From NCBI GenBank assembly GCA_947073645.1, contig CAMTMK010000010.1, positions 1 to 64,000 on the forward strand: DNA of 64,000 nt, given 5' to 3'. Made by a program: the position numbers and the translations under genes. Below the pieces are notes generated by a model, which saw only the letters and a list, made by a program, of their open reading frames with translations, made no database searches and had not been told where the DNA came from. The stretch is from an uncultured bacterium (GTDB lineage: Bacteria > Cyanobacteriota > Vampirovibrionia > Gastranaerophilales > Gastranaerophilaceae). This document shows, in pieces, positions 14,140 through 63,376 of the stretch (position 1 is the first letter of the stretch; each line of letters begins with the position of its first letter).

Positions 14140-14167
14140 TAAAGATTTTGCTAAAAAGTGCCGTAGA
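14140..14167 (+). promoter_or_regulatory. Sigma28-like promoter upstream of the 14254 gene
   Basis: TAAAGATT-N12-GCCGTAGA; same arrangement upstream of the paralogue at 50085. Confidence 0.45.
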
Positions 14168-14253: not shown

Positions 14254-15765
14254 ATGGGAATGGCAGCATCACAAGCAAGATTACTAAGCATAACAGCCCG
14301 ATTAACAAATAATGAAAATACGGGTCAGGCTGTATCATATTCTAAACAAAGACTTGCAGATCAAACTCAGCAGATTACAAATGAGTATAATGAGTCACTT
14401 GATGCTACCAAATTGACCGTATTAATAGGTTTTAATGGTGCACAGGCTAACTATGAAGATATTTCATACGGGCTTATGACAGGTATGCGTATGGCTGAAA
14501 CAACAAAACAATACGTTGTTACAGATACAAAAGGCAAAGTTTTGGTTACAAATCAGATTGCTGAAGCTTATGAAAAAAGCCATGGCAACTATAATGTATT
14601 CTTGGAAGCTTTGGGGTATTCTCAAGCAGATATAAGTGTTCAAAAAACATATACAAATATTGCAGACAGATCAAAAGATCAAGAAAAAGCAGAACAACAA
14701 ATCCACGAAGCATGGGATAAATATTTTGCATCAGTTGGTATTAATAAGTTTATGCCTGAACATGATTTGGGTATCAGTTGGAATGAAACTTATTCCAAAG
14801 ATGCTGACGGTGATTATTTGATGTATAAAATTGTAGATGGTAAACAAACTGTTACAAAACTTCCAAAAGACAAAGATACTGACGGTGACGGTGTTAATGA
14901 CAGCTGGCATGAAGCTACTATTAAAAATAACGCTATTGGTATTGTTGGTGACGGTTATGCAGGCTTTAAACGTGCTAAAACAGATGATGATGGCAAAATT
15001 GTTTACAATAAAATTCCACAAACTGATGTTGACGGCGAACCTGTTTTGGATTCAGATGGTAATCAGGTTATGATTGATGATTTGAGTAGTCCTGTATATG
15101 AAAAAGATAAAAATGGTGATTTTATTTGGGATCCAATTAACTATGAAGGAACTACGGAAGAATCACGTAATCTGTACGATTATGCAATGGCTATTACAGA
15201 AGCTTATTTGAGAGTCGGTACAGGTGAAAATGGTGTTGCATTTAAAACTCAGTATGATATGGAAGCTGTTAAATCAGCTGCAAATCCTGACAACGCAAGT
15301 GCTATAAAATATTACCAAAATATCTTTAACAAAATACAATCAAGCGGATATTTCACATACACAAACACACCTGCAAAAGTTGATGAAAACCACCTCTACA
15401 CATCAGAAGGCACAGGCACTAAAGGCAATGTTAAAAAGAACCCGCTTCAAGATAATTACACATTTGAAGCAGCATTACGCGACGGCTCTTTAAGACTTGA
15501 ATACTATTCATCAACAGATAAAGCTTTCAAATCTACCACAATCTCTGAGGATAACTGTATTCAAGAGGTTGCAGATGAAAGAGCAATCGCAAGAGCCGAA
15601 TCTAAGTATACTCAAGACATGGCTGATTTGGAAAATAAAGATAAGAAATTAGACCTTGAGCTCAAAAAACTCGACACTGAACACAACGCACTTCAAACAG
15701 AATATGATGCGGTTAAAAATGTTGTAGATAAAAACGTTGAAAGTTCATTCAAAATATTCTCATAA
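14254..15765 (+). CDS. MGxAAxQARLLSIT-family protein (paralogue of 48424..50085); function unknown
   Basis: 503 aa; N-terminal MGMAASQARLLSITAR and C-terminal ESKYTQDMADLENKDKKLDLELKKLDTEHNALQTEYDAVKNVVDKNVESSFK shared with the second copy; DTDGDG/DVDGEPVLDSDGN repeats in the middle. Confidence 0.85.
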   Translation: MGMAASQARLLSITARLTNNENTGQAVSYSKQRLADQTQQITNEYNESLDATKLTVLIGFNGAQANYEDISYGLMTGMRMAETTKQYVVTDTKGKVLVTNQIAEAYEKSHGNYNVFLEALGYSQADISVQKTYTNIADRSKDQEKAEQQIHEAWDKYFASVGINKFMPEHDLGISWNETYSKDADGDYLMYKIVDGKQTVTKLPKDKDTDGDGVNDSWHEATIKNNAIGIVGDGYAGFKRAKTDDDGKIVYNKIPQTDVDGEPVLDSDGNQVMIDDLSSPVYEKDKNGDFIWDPINYEGTTEESRNLYDYAMAITEAYLRVGTGENGVAFKTQYDMEAVKSAANPDNASAIKYYQNIFNKIQSSGYFTYTNTPAKVDENHLYTSEGTGTKGNVKKNPLQDNYTFEAALRDGSLRLEYYSSTDKAFKSTTISEDNCIQEVADERAIARAESKYTQDMADLENKDKKLDLELKKLDTEHNALQTEYDAVKNVVDKNVESSFKIFS

Positions 15766-47608: not shown

Positions 47609-48427
47609 ATGGTAGTAGAGGAACAATTATATTCTGACATCCCGCCTACAAAGCTTAGGAACAAGGAGGAAAAATTTAAACCGGCAAAAACAAGTCGTTT
47701 TTGGCTTTGGGTTGCAAGCATGTTTTTCTTTAATATGCTTCAAAACAGATTTTATGCATTCCGTTACAAAGGTGCAGAAAATGCTGTTGAAAAAGATATT
47801 CCGACTATTCTTTTTGCGCCGCATTGCAACTGGTGGGACGGTATAGTTTTATATAATATTACACATAGAATTTTTCATAGAGAAATTCGCTTAATGGTTG
47901 AAGAATTAAACAGATTCCCGCTTTTAAGACGAGGCGGAGCTTATTCTGTAAATAAAAAATCTCCGCAGTCGGCTATGAAAGCTTTGCAGTATTCTGTTGA
48001 AGTTGCCGGAGATTTAAGAAATATGCTCTGTATTTTCCCTCAGGGAATTATCAGACCGCCTCATTTCAGACCTATTGAATTTCAAACAGGGCTCGCATAT
48101 ATCGCACAGAATGCTGTCAAAAAATATGGTCGAGTTAATTTAATTCCATGCGCAATTGATTATTGCTTCTTTAGAGATAACAGACCCGAAGTTGTTGTTG
48201 ATTTTGGGAAACGTATAGAGCTTTCTAAAGATGCGCCTATAAACAGAAAAGATTTGACTACAATGTTGGAACAAGCTTTGACCCAAACTTGTGATGCTCA
48301 AGCTTATGATATTTCGCACGGTGAAGTTTCAAAATATAATATTTTGTTCAAACAGCATTTGAAATGGTACAGACGTATTGAACAACGCTTGAAAAGTATT
48401 GACTTACCGCCTGTTTCAGGGGTTTAA
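47609..48427 (+). CDS. 1-acyl-sn-glycerol-3-phosphate acyltransferase-like (PlsC family)
   Basis: APHCNWWDGIVLYN, FPQGIIRPP. Confidence 0.85.
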   Translation: MVVEEQLYSDIPPTKLRNKEEKFKPAKTSRFWLWVASMFFFNMLQNRFYAFRYKGAENAVEKDIPTILFAPHCNWWDGIVLYNITHRIFHREIRLMVEELNRFPLLRRGGAYSVNKKSPQSAMKALQYSVEVAGDLRNMLCIFPQGIIRPPHFRPIEFQTGLAYIAQNAVKKYGRVNLIPCAIDYCFFRDNRPEVVVDFGKRIELSKDAPINRKDLTTMLEQALTQTCDAQAYDISHGEVSKYNILFKQHLKWYRRIEQRLKSIDLPPVSGV

Positions 48428-50085
48428 GCACTGTAACGCTTGAACGATTTTTCAATATTTTTTGAAATTGTATTTTTAACTGTATCGTATTCTGTTGTTA
48501 GGGATGAAATCTCTGTATCAAGGTTTTTCATTTTTAAATCAAGAGTTTCTTCTTTAGCATTAAGTTTTGCTTTTTCTGTATTGTATTTAGATTCTGCATA
48601 AGCAATTAATGTTTCGTCTGCAATCTCTTTAATATAAGTATCTGTGGCATAGTTGCCCTGATAATAATAGTTATCGTCTTTCATTCTTGAAACGAACATC
48701 ATGCCGTTTTGAAGCATTTGTTGTAAGTATTCGTTATCATTAATTCTATCATTTTCAGTCCAGCCGTTAGCACAAATCTGATTAAATAAAGCATCATAGA
48801 ATGTAGCTTGACCTAAATCATCACTTGAAACTTCAGAACCTATTTTCCATATATATTCGAAAGTTTTATTATTTGTTGCTAAGTGACTATTTGTAATTTC
48901 TCCTTTGTTTACGTTAAAAATTTCAATACCACTGCTGGTTGTTTTTGATATACCATTCATATAATCTGCAAAGTATGTTAAATAAGCATTTAACATGTTA
49001 CTAATATCTAATTTCGCTTCAGATTTTGTGTCCTCAAACCAAGAGATCGCAGCATTTTTGTATGAATCACTTGTCCAACCGATATAGTTGGAGTCTTGAC
49101 TTACGGGACGACCGCCATTACTACCAATTCCTAAAAATCTATTACTTTGATAGCCAAATGCGTTGTAATCAGTAGAGTTGTCACTGACGTTGCCTTTAAC
49201 AATAATTTCTTGAATTGCACTTCTTGCATATTCTAATGCTTTAAGTGAATAATCATCTATTCCTAAAGTAGCAGTCAAATATTCATCCATTTGATCGAGA
49301 ATATTTGTTACGATAAATTCTTGTGCATTTTGAAACATTGTTTCGTCAACATGGTCTTTATCATTTTTATTCCAAAGATAAAGATCTGCACTTGTGCCAT
49401 CTCTACGACCAATTAAATCTCCCAAATTAAATGTTTTAGTTCCGTTACTATCTATTAAATCATTACCAGCATCATCTTTAAGTTTTAACTCGGCGTCATC
49501 TCCATGTTTCCAAGCGTCATTTAAAGTGATATTTATAGTAGCTCCTGATTCGTTTAAGTAGTCTAAAAATTTATCTATATTACCAGATTCAGTCGCAATT
49601 GCAACATTAGCACCACCACCAAAGCCTGCAGCTTGGTTATATGGGAGACCGGTTATTGTTTCTGCTAATTTGTTTGTAATTAAACCTGCTCCGGCAAGAC
49701 CGCCAATGAATGCATTACGCATATCTTCTGACGGTAATGTTCCCAAACCTTCTTGCGGAATACCTGCTTTGCGTGCTGCTGCAGCATATTTAGAATTTAG
49801 GGTTACTCTGCCTAATGAGTCAGAAATAATTGTTGGCATGTAGTTGTTTAGTGCAGATGGATACATTAGTAAACCATATGACAATTGTGTGCTGGTGTCG
49901 CCTTTACCGTAGTAATCATATATTAATTTAGTTTGGTTTAATGAATTTTGATATTCATTTGAAAGGTCAGCAAGCTCTCTCGCCAATGCAATTTTTTGGT
50001 GAGACAGACGCATAGATTCAAATTCACAGTCGGATTTTCGTCCTGTGATTGATAATAGTCTAGCTTGTCCTGCTGCTAATCCCAT
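48424..50085 (-). CDS. MGxAAxQARLLSIT-family protein (paralogue of 14254..15765); function unknown
   Basis: 553 aa; MGLAAGQARLLSITGR; ESKYNTEKAKLNAKEETLDLKMKNLDTEISSLTTEYDTVKNTISKNIEKSFKRYS. Confidence 0.85.
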   Translation of the reverse strand: MGLAAGQARLLSITGRKSDCEFESMRLSHQKIALARELADLSNEYQNSLNQTKLIYDYYGKGDTSTQLSYGLLMYPSALNNYMPTIISDSLGRVTLNSKYAAAARKAGIPQEGLGTLPSEDMRNAFIGGLAGAGLITNKLAETITGLPYNQAAGFGGGANVAIATESGNIDKFLDYLNESGATINITLNDAWKHGDDAELKLKDDAGNDLIDSNGTKTFNLGDLIGRRDGTSADLYLWNKNDKDHVDETMFQNAQEFIVTNILDQMDEYLTATLGIDDYSLKALEYARSAIQEIIVKGNVSDNSTDYNAFGYQSNRFLGIGSNGGRPVSQDSNYIGWTSDSYKNAAISWFEDTKSEAKLDISNMLNAYLTYFADYMNGISKTTSSGIEIFNVNKGEITNSHLATNNKTFEYIWKIGSEVSSDDLGQATFYDALFNQICANGWTENDRINDNEYLQQMLQNGMMFVSRMKDDNYYYQGNYATDTYIKEIADETLIAYAESKYNTEKAKLNAKEETLDLKMKNLDTEISSLTTEYDTVKNTISKNIEKSFKRYSA

Positions 50086-50179: not shown

Positions 50180-50207
50180 ATTACGGAATTTTTGTTTGAA
50201 AACTTTA
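50180..50207 (-). promoter_or_regulatory. Sigma28-like promoter upstream of the 48424..50085 gene
   Basis: Minus strand TAAAGTTT-N12-TCCGTAAT. Confidence 0.45.
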
Positions 50208-58870: not shown

Positions 58871-61800
58871 ATGCAGACAGAAATTGCTGAAATATTAAAT
58901 AATATGCGTGAAGAAAATCAACGCAATATCGAAAATTTTGAAAAAGTTCTCTCAGGAATTAACACAAAACTTGAGGCAATGGATGAAGATAATGAAGCAG
59001 TTGATTTGGTAAGATTTTATATTGCCGAGCTTAAAAAAGCTATGGAAGACAGGTTTAATGCTGCTCTTATCAGGTACGATGCGTTTGAAGCTTCTTTTGA
59101 CGGTATTATTACTGCTCAGGCTGAACTTGCAAAGACTTCTGAATTAAAAGATTTATTTGAAGTTTTCAGTGCACATAATAATGTGTTTATGACAGAAATT
59201 TCAAATCAAAAAAATCTGCTGGATATTCTTGATGTAAAATTATCTCAAATTGATGAAAAAACTGTTGATAAAGAAGAATTGACATCTATGGTTCAGGATG
59301 TTTCTCTTGATTTGTCCGTTTTGGGTGAAAATATTCAAAAAACTTTTTCTGAAGTTGAAGAAAAATTAAATGATTTGGATATGTCGGAACAGTTTAACAG
59401 AGTTAATGAAGCTGTTGAAGAACTTAAGGGGCTTGTTGCTTCTGCTCCTGATTATTCGGGAGAGTTTCAAAATCTTGAAAAAAATCTTGAAAATATTTTG
59501 ACAGAAGCTGATTTTGCAGATTTTAAAGAAAATATTGCTGATTTTGTACAGAAAATTATTGATAATTCATCAGCCCTAAATGCTGAGTTGTCATTTAGTA
59601 CCGAAAGGATTTTAGATTCGGTAAATTCAATTGATTATTCTGATTTGAAAGATGATTTGTCTGTTTTGAAAAATTGTTTGGATGATTTGAAACAGGTTTC
59701 TTATCAGGCAGCGTTTGATGAAGTTTCGGCTGTTTTATCAGATATTGGAAATAATTTAAATGAATTAAAAGCTGTGTCTTATCAGGCTTCTTTCGAAGAA
59801 CTTAACGGGCTTTTGGTGCGTATCGGTGAGGATGTACAGATTTTACGGTCTTCTATCGGTGCAGATGTGCAGGAAAATTACTGCGCGGTTAAGGCGGGAC
59901 TTGATGAGCTTATTTTAAATCTGCATGATATTAAAGATGATTTGTCAACTGTTGGTGAAGATGTTAAAGAAAATTCAAATAATAATTACAGTGCTTTAAA
60001 AAATTATCTTGAAGAAGTTTCTTTAAATATGAGTTCTTTACTTGATAGTATCGGTATTTTGAAGACAGATACAGTTATCAGCAGAGAAAAACTTTATGAG
60101 ATTAACGAAAAAATAGATAAGCTTGAACCTGTTGATTATTCTTATGATTTACAGCAGATGTCGTCTAAATTGGATGATTTAGCTGATGACAGCGCTTCTG
60201 TTTCTGCAAATATCGAAGAAAAATTTGAAAATATCAGAGAACTTGTTGAATCTCTTGATAATTCAGAAGCTGTAAAACTCCAGTTTGAAGGCTTTGAAAA
60301 AGCTTTTACTCAAATTGTTACGGCAGAAGATTTCTTGCATTTTAAGGCGGAATTTACGGAATTTATCCAAAAAATTATTGATAATTCGAATGCTTTATAT
60401 GACCACTCTAATTCTGTGAGAGAGCAGGCATTTGAGGGGTTTGAAAAAGTTAACTGTGCTCTTGCTGATTTATCTGCTAATGTTAACTATTTGAGAGATA
60501 TTTCTTCTCAAAAACCATCTGAAATTTTGGATAATATTAATTCTTGTATTAATGAAGCTGTTGAAAAATTAAATTCTGATTCCGATATGAATTTCGGCGA
60601 TTTGAAAAATTCGTTTGAAAAAATTGTATCAGAGATTGCTGAGATTAAAGATGATTTTGCTCAGAAAAATGATGCAAATGTGTTTAATATTTCATCAGGA
60701 TTTGACAAGGTGAAAATGTCTTTGGAAAATCTTGTATCTGCGCTTCATTCAATGGGGGCATCAAGTGAAAGTATTTCTGCAATTGATGAGAAAATCAGCA
60801 GACTTAATGATGTGATATCTTCACTTTCTTCTGATTTATTATTGAAGCAGGATGAAGTTGTTCAGCATATTAGTGATTCTGATGAAATTCGTTTGTCACA
60901 GATGAAAAGTATAAGTGAAAATATTGACGGTATCAGAGGATATATTGATGAAGGCGTTGAATGTCTAAAACAATATTTAGCTGAATTGGAAGTTTCTGCA
61001 AATTCTGCGAAAAGTGCGGGAGATGAAAAATTAACTCAGAAACTTTTGGATTTGGAAAGCACACTTGTTCAAAGTACAAATGAGTATGAACAGAAAATGG
61101 AGCTTTTGCAGGCAAAAATTACTGAATTTGCTCATATTGTTGAAAACAGTAATTCTGATACTGAGGGTAAGATATCATATTCACTGGATGAGATTCAGAG
61201 TATAAAAGCTGAGCTGGAAGTTTTAAATGACGGTTTAAAATCTTCTAAACTATCTGTTGATGAGAAATTTGGCGAAACAGTTTCTTTGATAGATGCGGGT
61301 ATTGAAAATATTATATTTAACCTTACAAATCTTACTGATAATGTTGTAAGCGGTGTAGGCGCTTCTTTTAAAGAAAATGTTTTAGGAATTGACGAAAAAT
61401 TTGACAGTTTATTTGAAAATATAAATGATATTAAAAATCAGCATACACTTAATAATGTTGATTTAATTCAGGATATAGAAAATAAAGTTACTGCATTGAA
61501 AGATGAATTAGGACTAATAAATTCAGATATTGCAAGTGCTTTAGAATGTAAATCCGAAGAAATTATTCGCGCATTTGAACCGGTGAAGACTGGAATAGAA
61601 GAATTTGCCGGATTTGAGTTTGAAAAAATTCTTACTGATTTAAAATCTCAGATTGAATTGGCATTTATGAATTTTTCTGTTGATATTAATAATGAGTTTG
61701 CTTCGAATTCTCAATCTGTTTCAAAGCTGGAACAGGCATTTAAGGAAACTTTTAACAGGTTGAGTGATATTGATGCCTGTGTTAGCGAAAAAATTCAGGA

Positions 61801-63376
61801 TAATATTGAACTTTTAAATGTAACATTGGAAAATTCATGCCGTGATATAAAAGTTAATATTGAAGGTAAGATAGAAGACCAAATTGGCGAGTTAAGAGAT
61901 TATTTTGATGTCGCGCTTAACAGTAATAATGTTGAAAATTCTATCAGTGATTTAAAAGACAGTTTTGGTATAATGGTCGATGAAATTAATACAAAACTTG
62001 ATGTTATTGCAACTGATACGACTTTAGATGATTTGAAAGATGATTTTGAAACTCAAATTGGTGAAATCAGTTCTAAACTCGATATAATTGTTTCCGATAC
62101 TTCTGTAGATGAACTTCATGACAGATTTGATGAGATTTTGGAAAATAATAACAAGATTTCAGATTCCGTTCAACAATTTAACGGAAGATTTGATAATCTT
62201 TCTCAGACAGAAGAACATGTTTCCGATATGATTTCTGCTTTGCATGCAAAGGTTGACGCTCTTGTTGATGATAGTTCAGAGTTTGATATTTTGGAAGAAA
62301 TTGATGTTATTAAAGATATTATCTTTGAACAGCGTAAATTCTTTGAAGTTTCTTCTGATGAGAAAGCTTCTGCTATTGATAAATATTTGAGAGATGTTCT
62401 TTTAAAACTTGATAATGTTGATTTGGAAAGAAATGCAGAAGATATTAAAGAAGCAATTTTAGGTGCTCTTGTTTCTCTTGTTGACCAAATCTCATTTGTG
62501 GAAGAAACAGAAGAGATTAAGGATTTTGTTGAAGAAAAAACTGAACAAATTAATCAAAATTTGATTGATGTTAAAAACCAGTTAAAACAGTTAACTTCAC
62601 CTGGTGATGATTTTGATTATACATATACACTGCAGGATGTAGAATCTGATATTGCAAAATTAAGACTTGCTGTTACAAATATGTCAGGCAATGATTTTTC
62701 AGAAGTTACTGATGAAATTAAAAAAATTGTTGATGCTGTTGAAGGTTTGGAAAACTCTTTAACGCAGGAACAGATTGTTGATTTGAAATCTGATATTGAA
62801 AAATTAAACGAAGATATTGTAAGTATAAGTTCCCGTACTAATAAACTGCTTTTGACTTCTGATGAATCTTATAAAGCTCTAAATGACGGGTTAAATAATT
62901 TCAGTAATATTATATATAAACTTGAAGATAGAATTAACTATCTTGATAACACTGAGGCGAGTGAAAGAGTTGAAAGAAAAATTGACAGCATTCATTCTCT
63001 TGCGGTTGAGGCGGATAATGCTAACAAAGTTTCACGTCAGGTTATGATGTATCTTGGAGAATGGATTGATTCTGCAGGTGAAAACATTTCTGAAATCAGT
63101 GAAAAAACTGCAGAAATCGACAGTATTAAAGAAAGTATTCAAGAGTTAAGAGAAATTATTCCTGAAAAAAATCTTATTCTGGATGATATAGAACGTAAAT
63201 TTGAACGTCAGGAAGAAAGAATTGACAGATTGGAAATGGGATTGGATAAGGTCCTTTTGATACTCGAACAAAAAGATGATACGATATTAGCAAGTAAGGT
63301 GGATAATATTGAAAGACTTCTGTCCGCTCTCGGTACGAATATAGAAAAGCTGACTTCTTATGTTGATGAAGAATAA
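58871..63376 (+). CDS. Very long coiled-coil protein, 1501 aa
   Basis: Continuous acidic heptad-rich ORF without signal peptide; internal duplication ADFVQKIIDNSSAL / TEFIQKIIDNSNAL. Confidence 0.85.
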   Translation: MQTEIAEILNNMREENQRNIENFEKVLSGINTKLEAMDEDNEAVDLVRFYIAELKKAMEDRFNAALIRYDAFEASFDGIITAQAELAKTSELKDLFEVFSAHNNVFMTEISNQKNLLDILDVKLSQIDEKTVDKEELTSMVQDVSLDLSVLGENIQKTFSEVEEKLNDLDMSEQFNRVNEAVEELKGLVASAPDYSGEFQNLEKNLENILTEADFADFKENIADFVQKIIDNSSALNAELSFSTERILDSVNSIDYSDLKDDLSVLKNCLDDLKQVSYQAAFDEVSAVLSDIGNNLNELKAVSYQASFEELNGLLVRIGEDVQILRSSIGADVQENYCAVKAGLDELILNLHDIKDDLSTVGEDVKENSNNNYSALKNYLEEVSLNMSSLLDSIGILKTDTVISREKLYEINEKIDKLEPVDYSYDLQQMSSKLDDLADDSASVSANIEEKFENIRELVESLDNSEAVKLQFEGFEKAFTQIVTAEDFLHFKAEFTEFIQKIIDNSNALYDHSNSVREQAFEGFEKVNCALADLSANVNYLRDISSQKPSEILDNINSCINEAVEKLNSDSDMNFGDLKNSFEKIVSEIAEIKDDFAQKNDANVFNISSGFDKVKMSLENLVSALHSMGASSESISAIDEKISRLNDVISSLSSDLLLKQDEVVQHISDSDEIRLSQMKSISENIDGIRGYIDEGVECLKQYLAELEVSANSAKSAGDEKLTQKLLDLESTLVQSTNEYEQKMELLQAKITEFAHIVENSNSDTEGKISYSLDEIQSIKAELEVLNDGLKSSKLSVDEKFGETVSLIDAGIENIIFNLTNLTDNVVSGVGASFKENVLGIDEKFDSLFENINDIKNQHTLNNVDLIQDIENKVTALKDELGLINSDIASALECKSEEIIRAFEPVKTGIEEFAGFEFEKILTDLKSQIELAFMNFSVDINNEFASNSQSVSKLEQAFKETFNRLSDIDACVSEKIQDNIELLNVTLENSCRDIKVNIEGKIEDQIGELRDYFDVALNSNNVENSISDLKDSFGIMVDEINTKLDVIATDTTLDDLKDDFETQIGEISSKLDIIVSDTSVDELHDRFDEILENNNKISDSVQQFNGRFDNLSQTEEHVSDMISALHAKVDALVDDSSEFDILEEIDVIKDIIFEQRKFFEVSSDEKASAIDKYLRDVLLKLDNVDLERNAEDIKEAILGALVSLVDQISFVEETEEIKDFVEEKTEQINQNLIDVKNQLKQLTSPGDDFDYTYTLQDVESDIAKLRLAVTNMSGNDFSEVTDEIKKIVDAVEGLENSLTQEQIVDLKSDIEKLNEDIVSISSRTNKLLLTSDESYKALNDGLNNFSNIIYKLEDRINYLDNTEASERVERKIDSIHSLAVEADNANKVSRQVMMYLGEWIDSAGENISEISEKTAEIDSIKESIQELREIIPEKNLILDDIERKFERQEERIDRLEMGLDKVLLILEQKDDTILASKVDNIERLLSALGTNIEKLTSYVDEE

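Follow-up and report, generated by a model that had tools for sequence, protein, structure and literature searches.

A multi-copy protein family with a flagellin-like plan as candidate axial subunits of a second flagellum-derived type III system in Gastranaerophilales

We analyzed a stretch of 64,000 nucleotides (hereafter the window, 64 kb) from a genome of the Gastranaerophilales, a gut lineage of non-photosynthetic Cyanobacteria, and found that two of its proteins, P0001 and P0002, belong to a larger family that, judged from its sequences, resembles flagellin in both its plan and its regulation, yet is not a flagellin member. On balance, we favor the reading that its members are exported late and serve as axial (filament) subunits, and that the exporting machine is a second type III system derived from the flagellum. 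With considerably more confidence, they can be regarded as late substrates, whether filament-forming or not, of this system, which is referred to here as the FlhA-b system after its FlhA clade.

Conserved helical ends and a hypervariable core

P0001 (503 aa; 14254..15765, plus strand) and P0002 (553 aa; 48424..50085, minus strand) are intact open reading frames of the long form. BLASTP aligned residues 1-109 of P0001 with residues 1-107 of P0002 (34% identity, 2e-13) and residues 339-503 with residues 415-552 (33% identity, 1e-19), a similarity of the ends that is far above chance and confirms what the original prediction had noted. The same prediction had found the middles to look unrelated; this holds for the center alone, as the similarity runs some way into the core from either end. 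It had also described a family of two copies, while a search by family gave nine members in the source genome of the window (1.71 Mb, 99.8% complete), namely eight long members and a short one of 108 aa. The long members are encoded on contigs C10 (two), C3, C5/C30, C19, C8, C7, and C2, one gene apparently being cut by a contig break, with one part at the end of C5 and the other at the start of C30. Residues invariant in all eight long paralogues include M1, G2, A5, Q7, A8, R9, L11, T14, R16, and E21 at the N-terminus (alignment A1) and D46, E48, T54, E55, K65, and F71 at the C-terminus (numbering of alignment A2). Relatives of P0001 were found at 42 loci in other genomes, and most of these were aligned. 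Directly upstream of the family member on C19 lie terminase- and portal-like genes (L018:1459-7155), and from this gene content a prophage seems to adjoin it.

The AlphaFold2 model of P0001, made with 38 further sequences (pLDDT 81, pTM 0.67), consists of a helix at residues 2-49 and a helix at residues 442-502 with a mixed alpha/beta core in between. These helices correspond to the conserved ends seen in the paralogue alignments A1 and A2, i.e. residues 1-49, starting with MGMAASQARLLSIT (14254..14400, plus strand; identity 0.80-0.93), and residues 442-502 (15577..15759, plus strand). Among the aligned relatives, whose total length ranges from 375 to 644 aa, the first and last 50 residues of P0001 have a mean identity of 80-93%. 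The Asp/Gly-rich core segment at residues 176-300 (14779..15153, plus strand), into which the DTDGDG stretch falls, is hypervariable, with a mean identity per block of 0.07-0.36. For P0002, the confidence of the model is limited to the terminal helices, residues 2-51 (conserved segment 1-51; 49933..50085, minus strand) and 491-552 (48430..48615, minus strand), with block pLDDT values of 78-91 up to residue 50 and 82-93 over residues 501-550; its core was poorly modelled from a shallow alignment (pLDDT 52). The predicted helices and the alignment of P0001 relatives thus bear out the proposed arrangement of conserved helical ends around a variable core. The cores of the paralogues differ, no common fold was detected among them, and searches of Pfam, NCBIfam, and the PDB gave matches to the cores at chance level only. 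In P0001 and P0002 no domain was recognized and no Pfam match was found, and strong homology to a characterized enzyme was looked for in the same three databases with no hit.

FliA-type promoters upstream of the family genes

A FliA (sigma-28)-type promoter motif, TAAAGNNT-N12-NCCG, was present upstream of seven of the nine family genes and of one of 212 control ORFs (p = 6e-11; this value is after the fact because the motif was first spotted in these sequences, and the control set and the count in the window are fairer guides). The search used TAAAG-N15-NCCG within <=250 bp upstream, and the spacing was constant in all seven genes. Their pattern can be written as TAAAG[A/T][A/T]T-N12-[G/T]CCG and is shared by P0001, P0002, and five other members. 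The site of P0001, TAAAGATT-N12-GCCGTAGA, lies 114 bp upstream of the ATG (14140..14167, plus strand) and that of P0002, TAAAGTTT-N12-TCCGTAAT, 122 bp upstream (50180..50207, minus strand); the C5 copy has its site at 182 bp upstream, with a T before CCG. The genes lacking the promoter are the long member on C8 and the 108-aa member. The motif was also found upstream of 39 of the 42 P0001 relatives. Within the window there were two matches, both at the two family genes, where 0.41 were expected, and two or more matches were reached in 6 of 100 shuffles. Furthermore, a stricter pattern occurred nine times in the 299 kb that were scanned (overlaps counted twice; about 17% of the 1.71-Mb genome): seven times at family genes, once at a 424-aa gene beside FliN/FliP/Q/R, and once inside an ORF. 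The family promoter closely resembles the published FliA consensus, TAAAGTTT-n11-GCCGATAA (PMC2859248; see also PMC7286023), with one base of difference in spacing, 12 versus the enterobacterial 11.

Consistent with such regulation, the source genome encodes FliA (C6:55724-56386; 237 bits versus a curated cut-off of 190). FliA also scored above the cut-off in all nine further genomes examined that have the family but no flagellin, and no match above the cut-off was found in two f3 genomes that have neither the family nor FlhA. The same promoter pattern was not seen at most of the 109-aa genes of the outgroups, nor in the available stretch upstream of most flagellin genes of relatives, while an f2 flagellin (L192) has it with a spacing of 11. 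Because most of these short genes and flagellins are without the pattern, FliA regulation is best supported within the Gastranaerophilales. From the motif we infer that FliA transcribes the family genes.

A probable second export system that accompanies the family

The distribution of the family was surveyed in one set of 197 genomes of the class. The N-terminal motif family was present in 118 genomes and Flagellin_N in 52. FlhA was found in 144, including all 118 family-positive genomes, a co-occurrence with export genes that the original prediction had proposed to check; this co-occurrence tracks one clade, FlhA clade b, so that the genomes are not independent and the association is weaker than the counts suggest. 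In one family-positive genome, G090 (f1, seven family members), the FlhA matches were short only (best 2.8e-48), which may reflect either an assembly gap or a true loss of FlhA-b. Flagellin accompanied the family in 42 genomes and was missing from the other 76; the ten flagellin-positive genomes without the family all belong to f5.

In an FlhA tree, the flagellar clade was separate from clade b, which holds a copy from the source genome and from every other sampled family-positive genome (14 in all; support 100/100). Flagellated relatives carry both FlhA types and, likewise, two FliP. Moreover, the short family member and FlhA-b were located on one contig in 30 of 61 Gastranaerophilaceae genomes, from six genera, and in all 30 the distance between them was 6.2-13.1 kb. 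The FlhA of f5-f7, which have no family members, is sister to clade b (support 99/97); these non-canonical copies (L081-L083, L087, L088), accompanied by a lack of flagellin in f6 and f7, possibly mark a third variant system. A separate 492-aa protein of the source genome (C27:8587-10065; L068:8587-10065:+) contains the cytosolic domain of FlhA alone (PF00771 positions 309-654, 1.6e-47) behind an unrelated N-terminus, and similar proteins of 484-498 aa occur in f1/f2 relatives.

Clade-b gene clusters encode FliE, FliF, a FliG-position protein, FliH, and FlhA, to which the clusters of relatives add FlgF/G-like proteins, FlgB, FlgC, and an SLT transglycosylase. The source genome has the core genes for FlhA, FliF, FliN, FliP, FliQ, and FliR as well as the rod-type genes flgB, flgC, and fliE, with the rod genes on C6 and those for FliN, FliP, FliQ, and FliR on C21. 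Flagellin_N was not found in the source genome, and neither was a hook-sized protein (the size of FlgE or FlgK), all ORFs with a rod motif being <=238 aa. Since flgB, flgC, and fliE are present, which is the definition of the flagellar type by Abby and Rocha (PMC3459982), the partner system counts as flagellar-type rather than as an injectisome. Soo et al. (2014) interpreted such gene sets as an incomplete flagellum, with no functional flagellum possible (PMC4040986), and theirs is probably the same gene set as that described here. The difference lies in FlhA, which here falls into a paralogous clade of its own that relatives possess side by side with true flagella; the tree thus argues for a distinct, retained system separate from the motility flagellum. 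We found no description of a second type III system in this class in the literature.

Three further loci were noted on the same contigs of the source genome. The 424-aa protein on C21 (C21:12292-13566; L185:12292-13566:-), which has no Pfam match, adjoins FliN/FliP/Q/R, and carries the FliA-type promoter mentioned above, is a candidate further substrate. Also on C21 (C21:18015-19634; L227:15-1634:-), a protein of 302 aa and a partner with an OmpA domain (PF00691, 1.5e-9) look like a MotA/MotB- or Zorya-type pair. A 172-aa protein on C6 (L168:2321-2839:-) has an N-terminal pattern, YRKLDINRQRSDLNYRLMEI, that by eye is like that of the short form, and is a possible distant relative of the family.

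The short form, known systems, and the proposed role

In the outgroup families f4, f9, and f10, the family members are bare proteins of ~109 aa, mostly four to nine per genome. Seventeen short proteins, including the 108-aa member of the source genome, aligned over 109 columns and were gap-free internally until the last residues, and most of them have a turn of the type LxPxSP. Long forms match the short-form profile in two pieces, which flank the core and mostly cover about 1-50 and 50-108, so that a long form counts as two of the 7-24 profile matches in each Gastranaerophilaceae genome. In this group, the predicted turn of the hairpin carries an inserted domain of 100-600 residues. The simplest history would be that the bare 109-residue protein is the ancestral form and that the domain was inserted at its turn. 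An insertion at this site follows the same plan as flagellin, with D0/D1 and D2/D3 (PMC7018530).

The likeness to flagellin extends to the conserved helical ends, the variable central insert, the presence of several paralogues, the FliA-type promoter, the lack of a Sec signal, and a genome that codes for a flagellar-type export gate. However, Pfam gave no match to Flagellin_N (PF00669) or Flagellin_C (PF00700), the motifs are unrelated, and the family occurs both without flagellin and beside it. The original prediction had suggested a comparison with flagellin and other axial folds, and the comparisons made here gave no support for membership in the flagellin, hook, or rod families. By hhalign, the match of the short form to flagellin was not significant (E 0.014 over 20 columns, probability 3%), nor was any match of the family to rod proteins (FlgB/C/F/G), FliE, FliF, the FliG-position protein, or FliH; a resemblance to rod N-termini (GMxAxQxxL) that had been drawn by eye is thus left unsupported, and the Flg_bb_rod motif had no Pfam match in family proteins. 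Foldseek returned no match in the PDB at E <= 0.001, and the flagellin chains that head its list (E 0.08, TM 0.10) are not evidence of kinship. Needle and filament subunits of the SctF/EspA type are of similar size to the bare ~109-aa form, and would be of similar design if this form folds into its putative helical hairpin, the turn of which is Pro-rich (LDPESP). The family had no match to a needle subunit (SctF/MxiH) in the PDB, where a profile search against solved needle and other axial proteins returned coiled coils only, and its partner system has the flagellar rod genes FlgB/FlgC/FliE, which sets it apart from an injectisome. The secretin-less, 'needleless' non-flagellar type III system of Myxococcus likewise combines flagellum-derived export with a lack of hook, filament, and motility genes (PMC3459982, PMC12075869), whereas the Gastranaerophilales system keeps rod genes and FliE and has a candidate family of axial subunits.

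The idea of exported axial proteins, put forward in the original prediction, therefore stands in part: the helical ends around a variable core, the bare 109-residue form, FlhA in 118 of 118 genomes, the FliA promoter, which the original prediction had not noticed, and the lack of enzyme homology speak for it, while membership in the flagellin, hook, or rod families found no support. FliA-type regulation and co-occurrence with FlhA would suit any late substrate. The same type III system might, for instance, secrete effectors or surface adhesins whose ends serve for export (as signal and chaperone site) and whose cores act singly, with no filament. The differing cores of the paralogues and the many profile matches per genome would also agree with such a role. 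Both termini are not normally common to effectors, however, and since the outgroups have the ends alone as multi-copy proteins, the ends themselves appear to be the functional unit; we consider effectors or adhesins unlikely.

It is less probable still that these are cytosolic coiled-coil proteins, for example scaffold or chemosensory parts, that are co-regulated by FliA and not exported. In other bacteria, genes for chemotaxis and the motor are likewise under FliA control, the family has no signal peptide, and its ends look like generic coiled coils in Pfam and PDB searches, but a hypervariable core is typical of surface-exposed proteins, and both the multi-copy expansion and the link of the short form to FlhA count against this role. 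That the export genes are what is left of a flagellum in decay, with the family doing something unrelated, as the incomplete flagellum of Soo et al. (2014; PMC4040986) might suggest, is hard to reconcile with an FlhA that is not the flagellar paralogue, both paralogues being present in flagellated relatives, and with ORFs that are intact and conserved over the sampled genera in genomes that kept FliA; we regard it as highly improbable.

For the favored reading of axial subunits, we infer export and polymerization as follows. FliA would transcribe the genes, as with flagellins, and the proteins would leave the cell independently of a Sec signal, the likely exporter being the second, paralogous flagellum-derived system with its own FlhA clade, FliE, FliF, FliH, FliN, FliP/Q/R, FliG-position protein, and FlgB/C/F/G rod. 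The motility flagellum, kept by some relatives and missing from the source genome, would be a machine apart from this system. The N- and C-terminal helical segments would form a structural hairpin that polymerizes, with the domain inserted at the turn displayed on the outside, and the resulting surface fiber, whether short or long, would bear paralogue-specific decorations and serve contact or adhesion and not swimming. The proteins may build a previously undescribed fiber. More tentatively, and with somewhat less than even confidence, we propose that a second machine of flagellar descent arose in the non-photosynthetic Cyanobacteria, having as its own fiber subunit a 109-residue hairpin unrelated in sequence to flagellin or needle proteins, that gut lineages independently gained a flagellin-like variable insert, and that the machine was kept after the loss of swimming. 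The 'incomplete flagellum' found in a widespread gut lineage could thereby be assigned a function, namely that of a separate, retained secretion or fiber system for which candidate substrates and a regulator can be named. If true, it would also be a second instance of the flagellin design, a constant helical hairpin with a hypervariable insert, apparently from an unrelated hairpin, and the family could serve as a marker for metaproteomics and imaging.

Two other features of the source genome were recorded. The window encodes a 1501-aa protein (58871-63376) with long coiled-coil stretches, which gave only apolipoprotein-type matches below the curated cut-off. In addition, many small proteins of the genome, e.g. 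L067:8545-9180 and L019:9570-10319, have a pseudopilin-like start, FTLAEVLITLGIIGVVAAMTMPTL.
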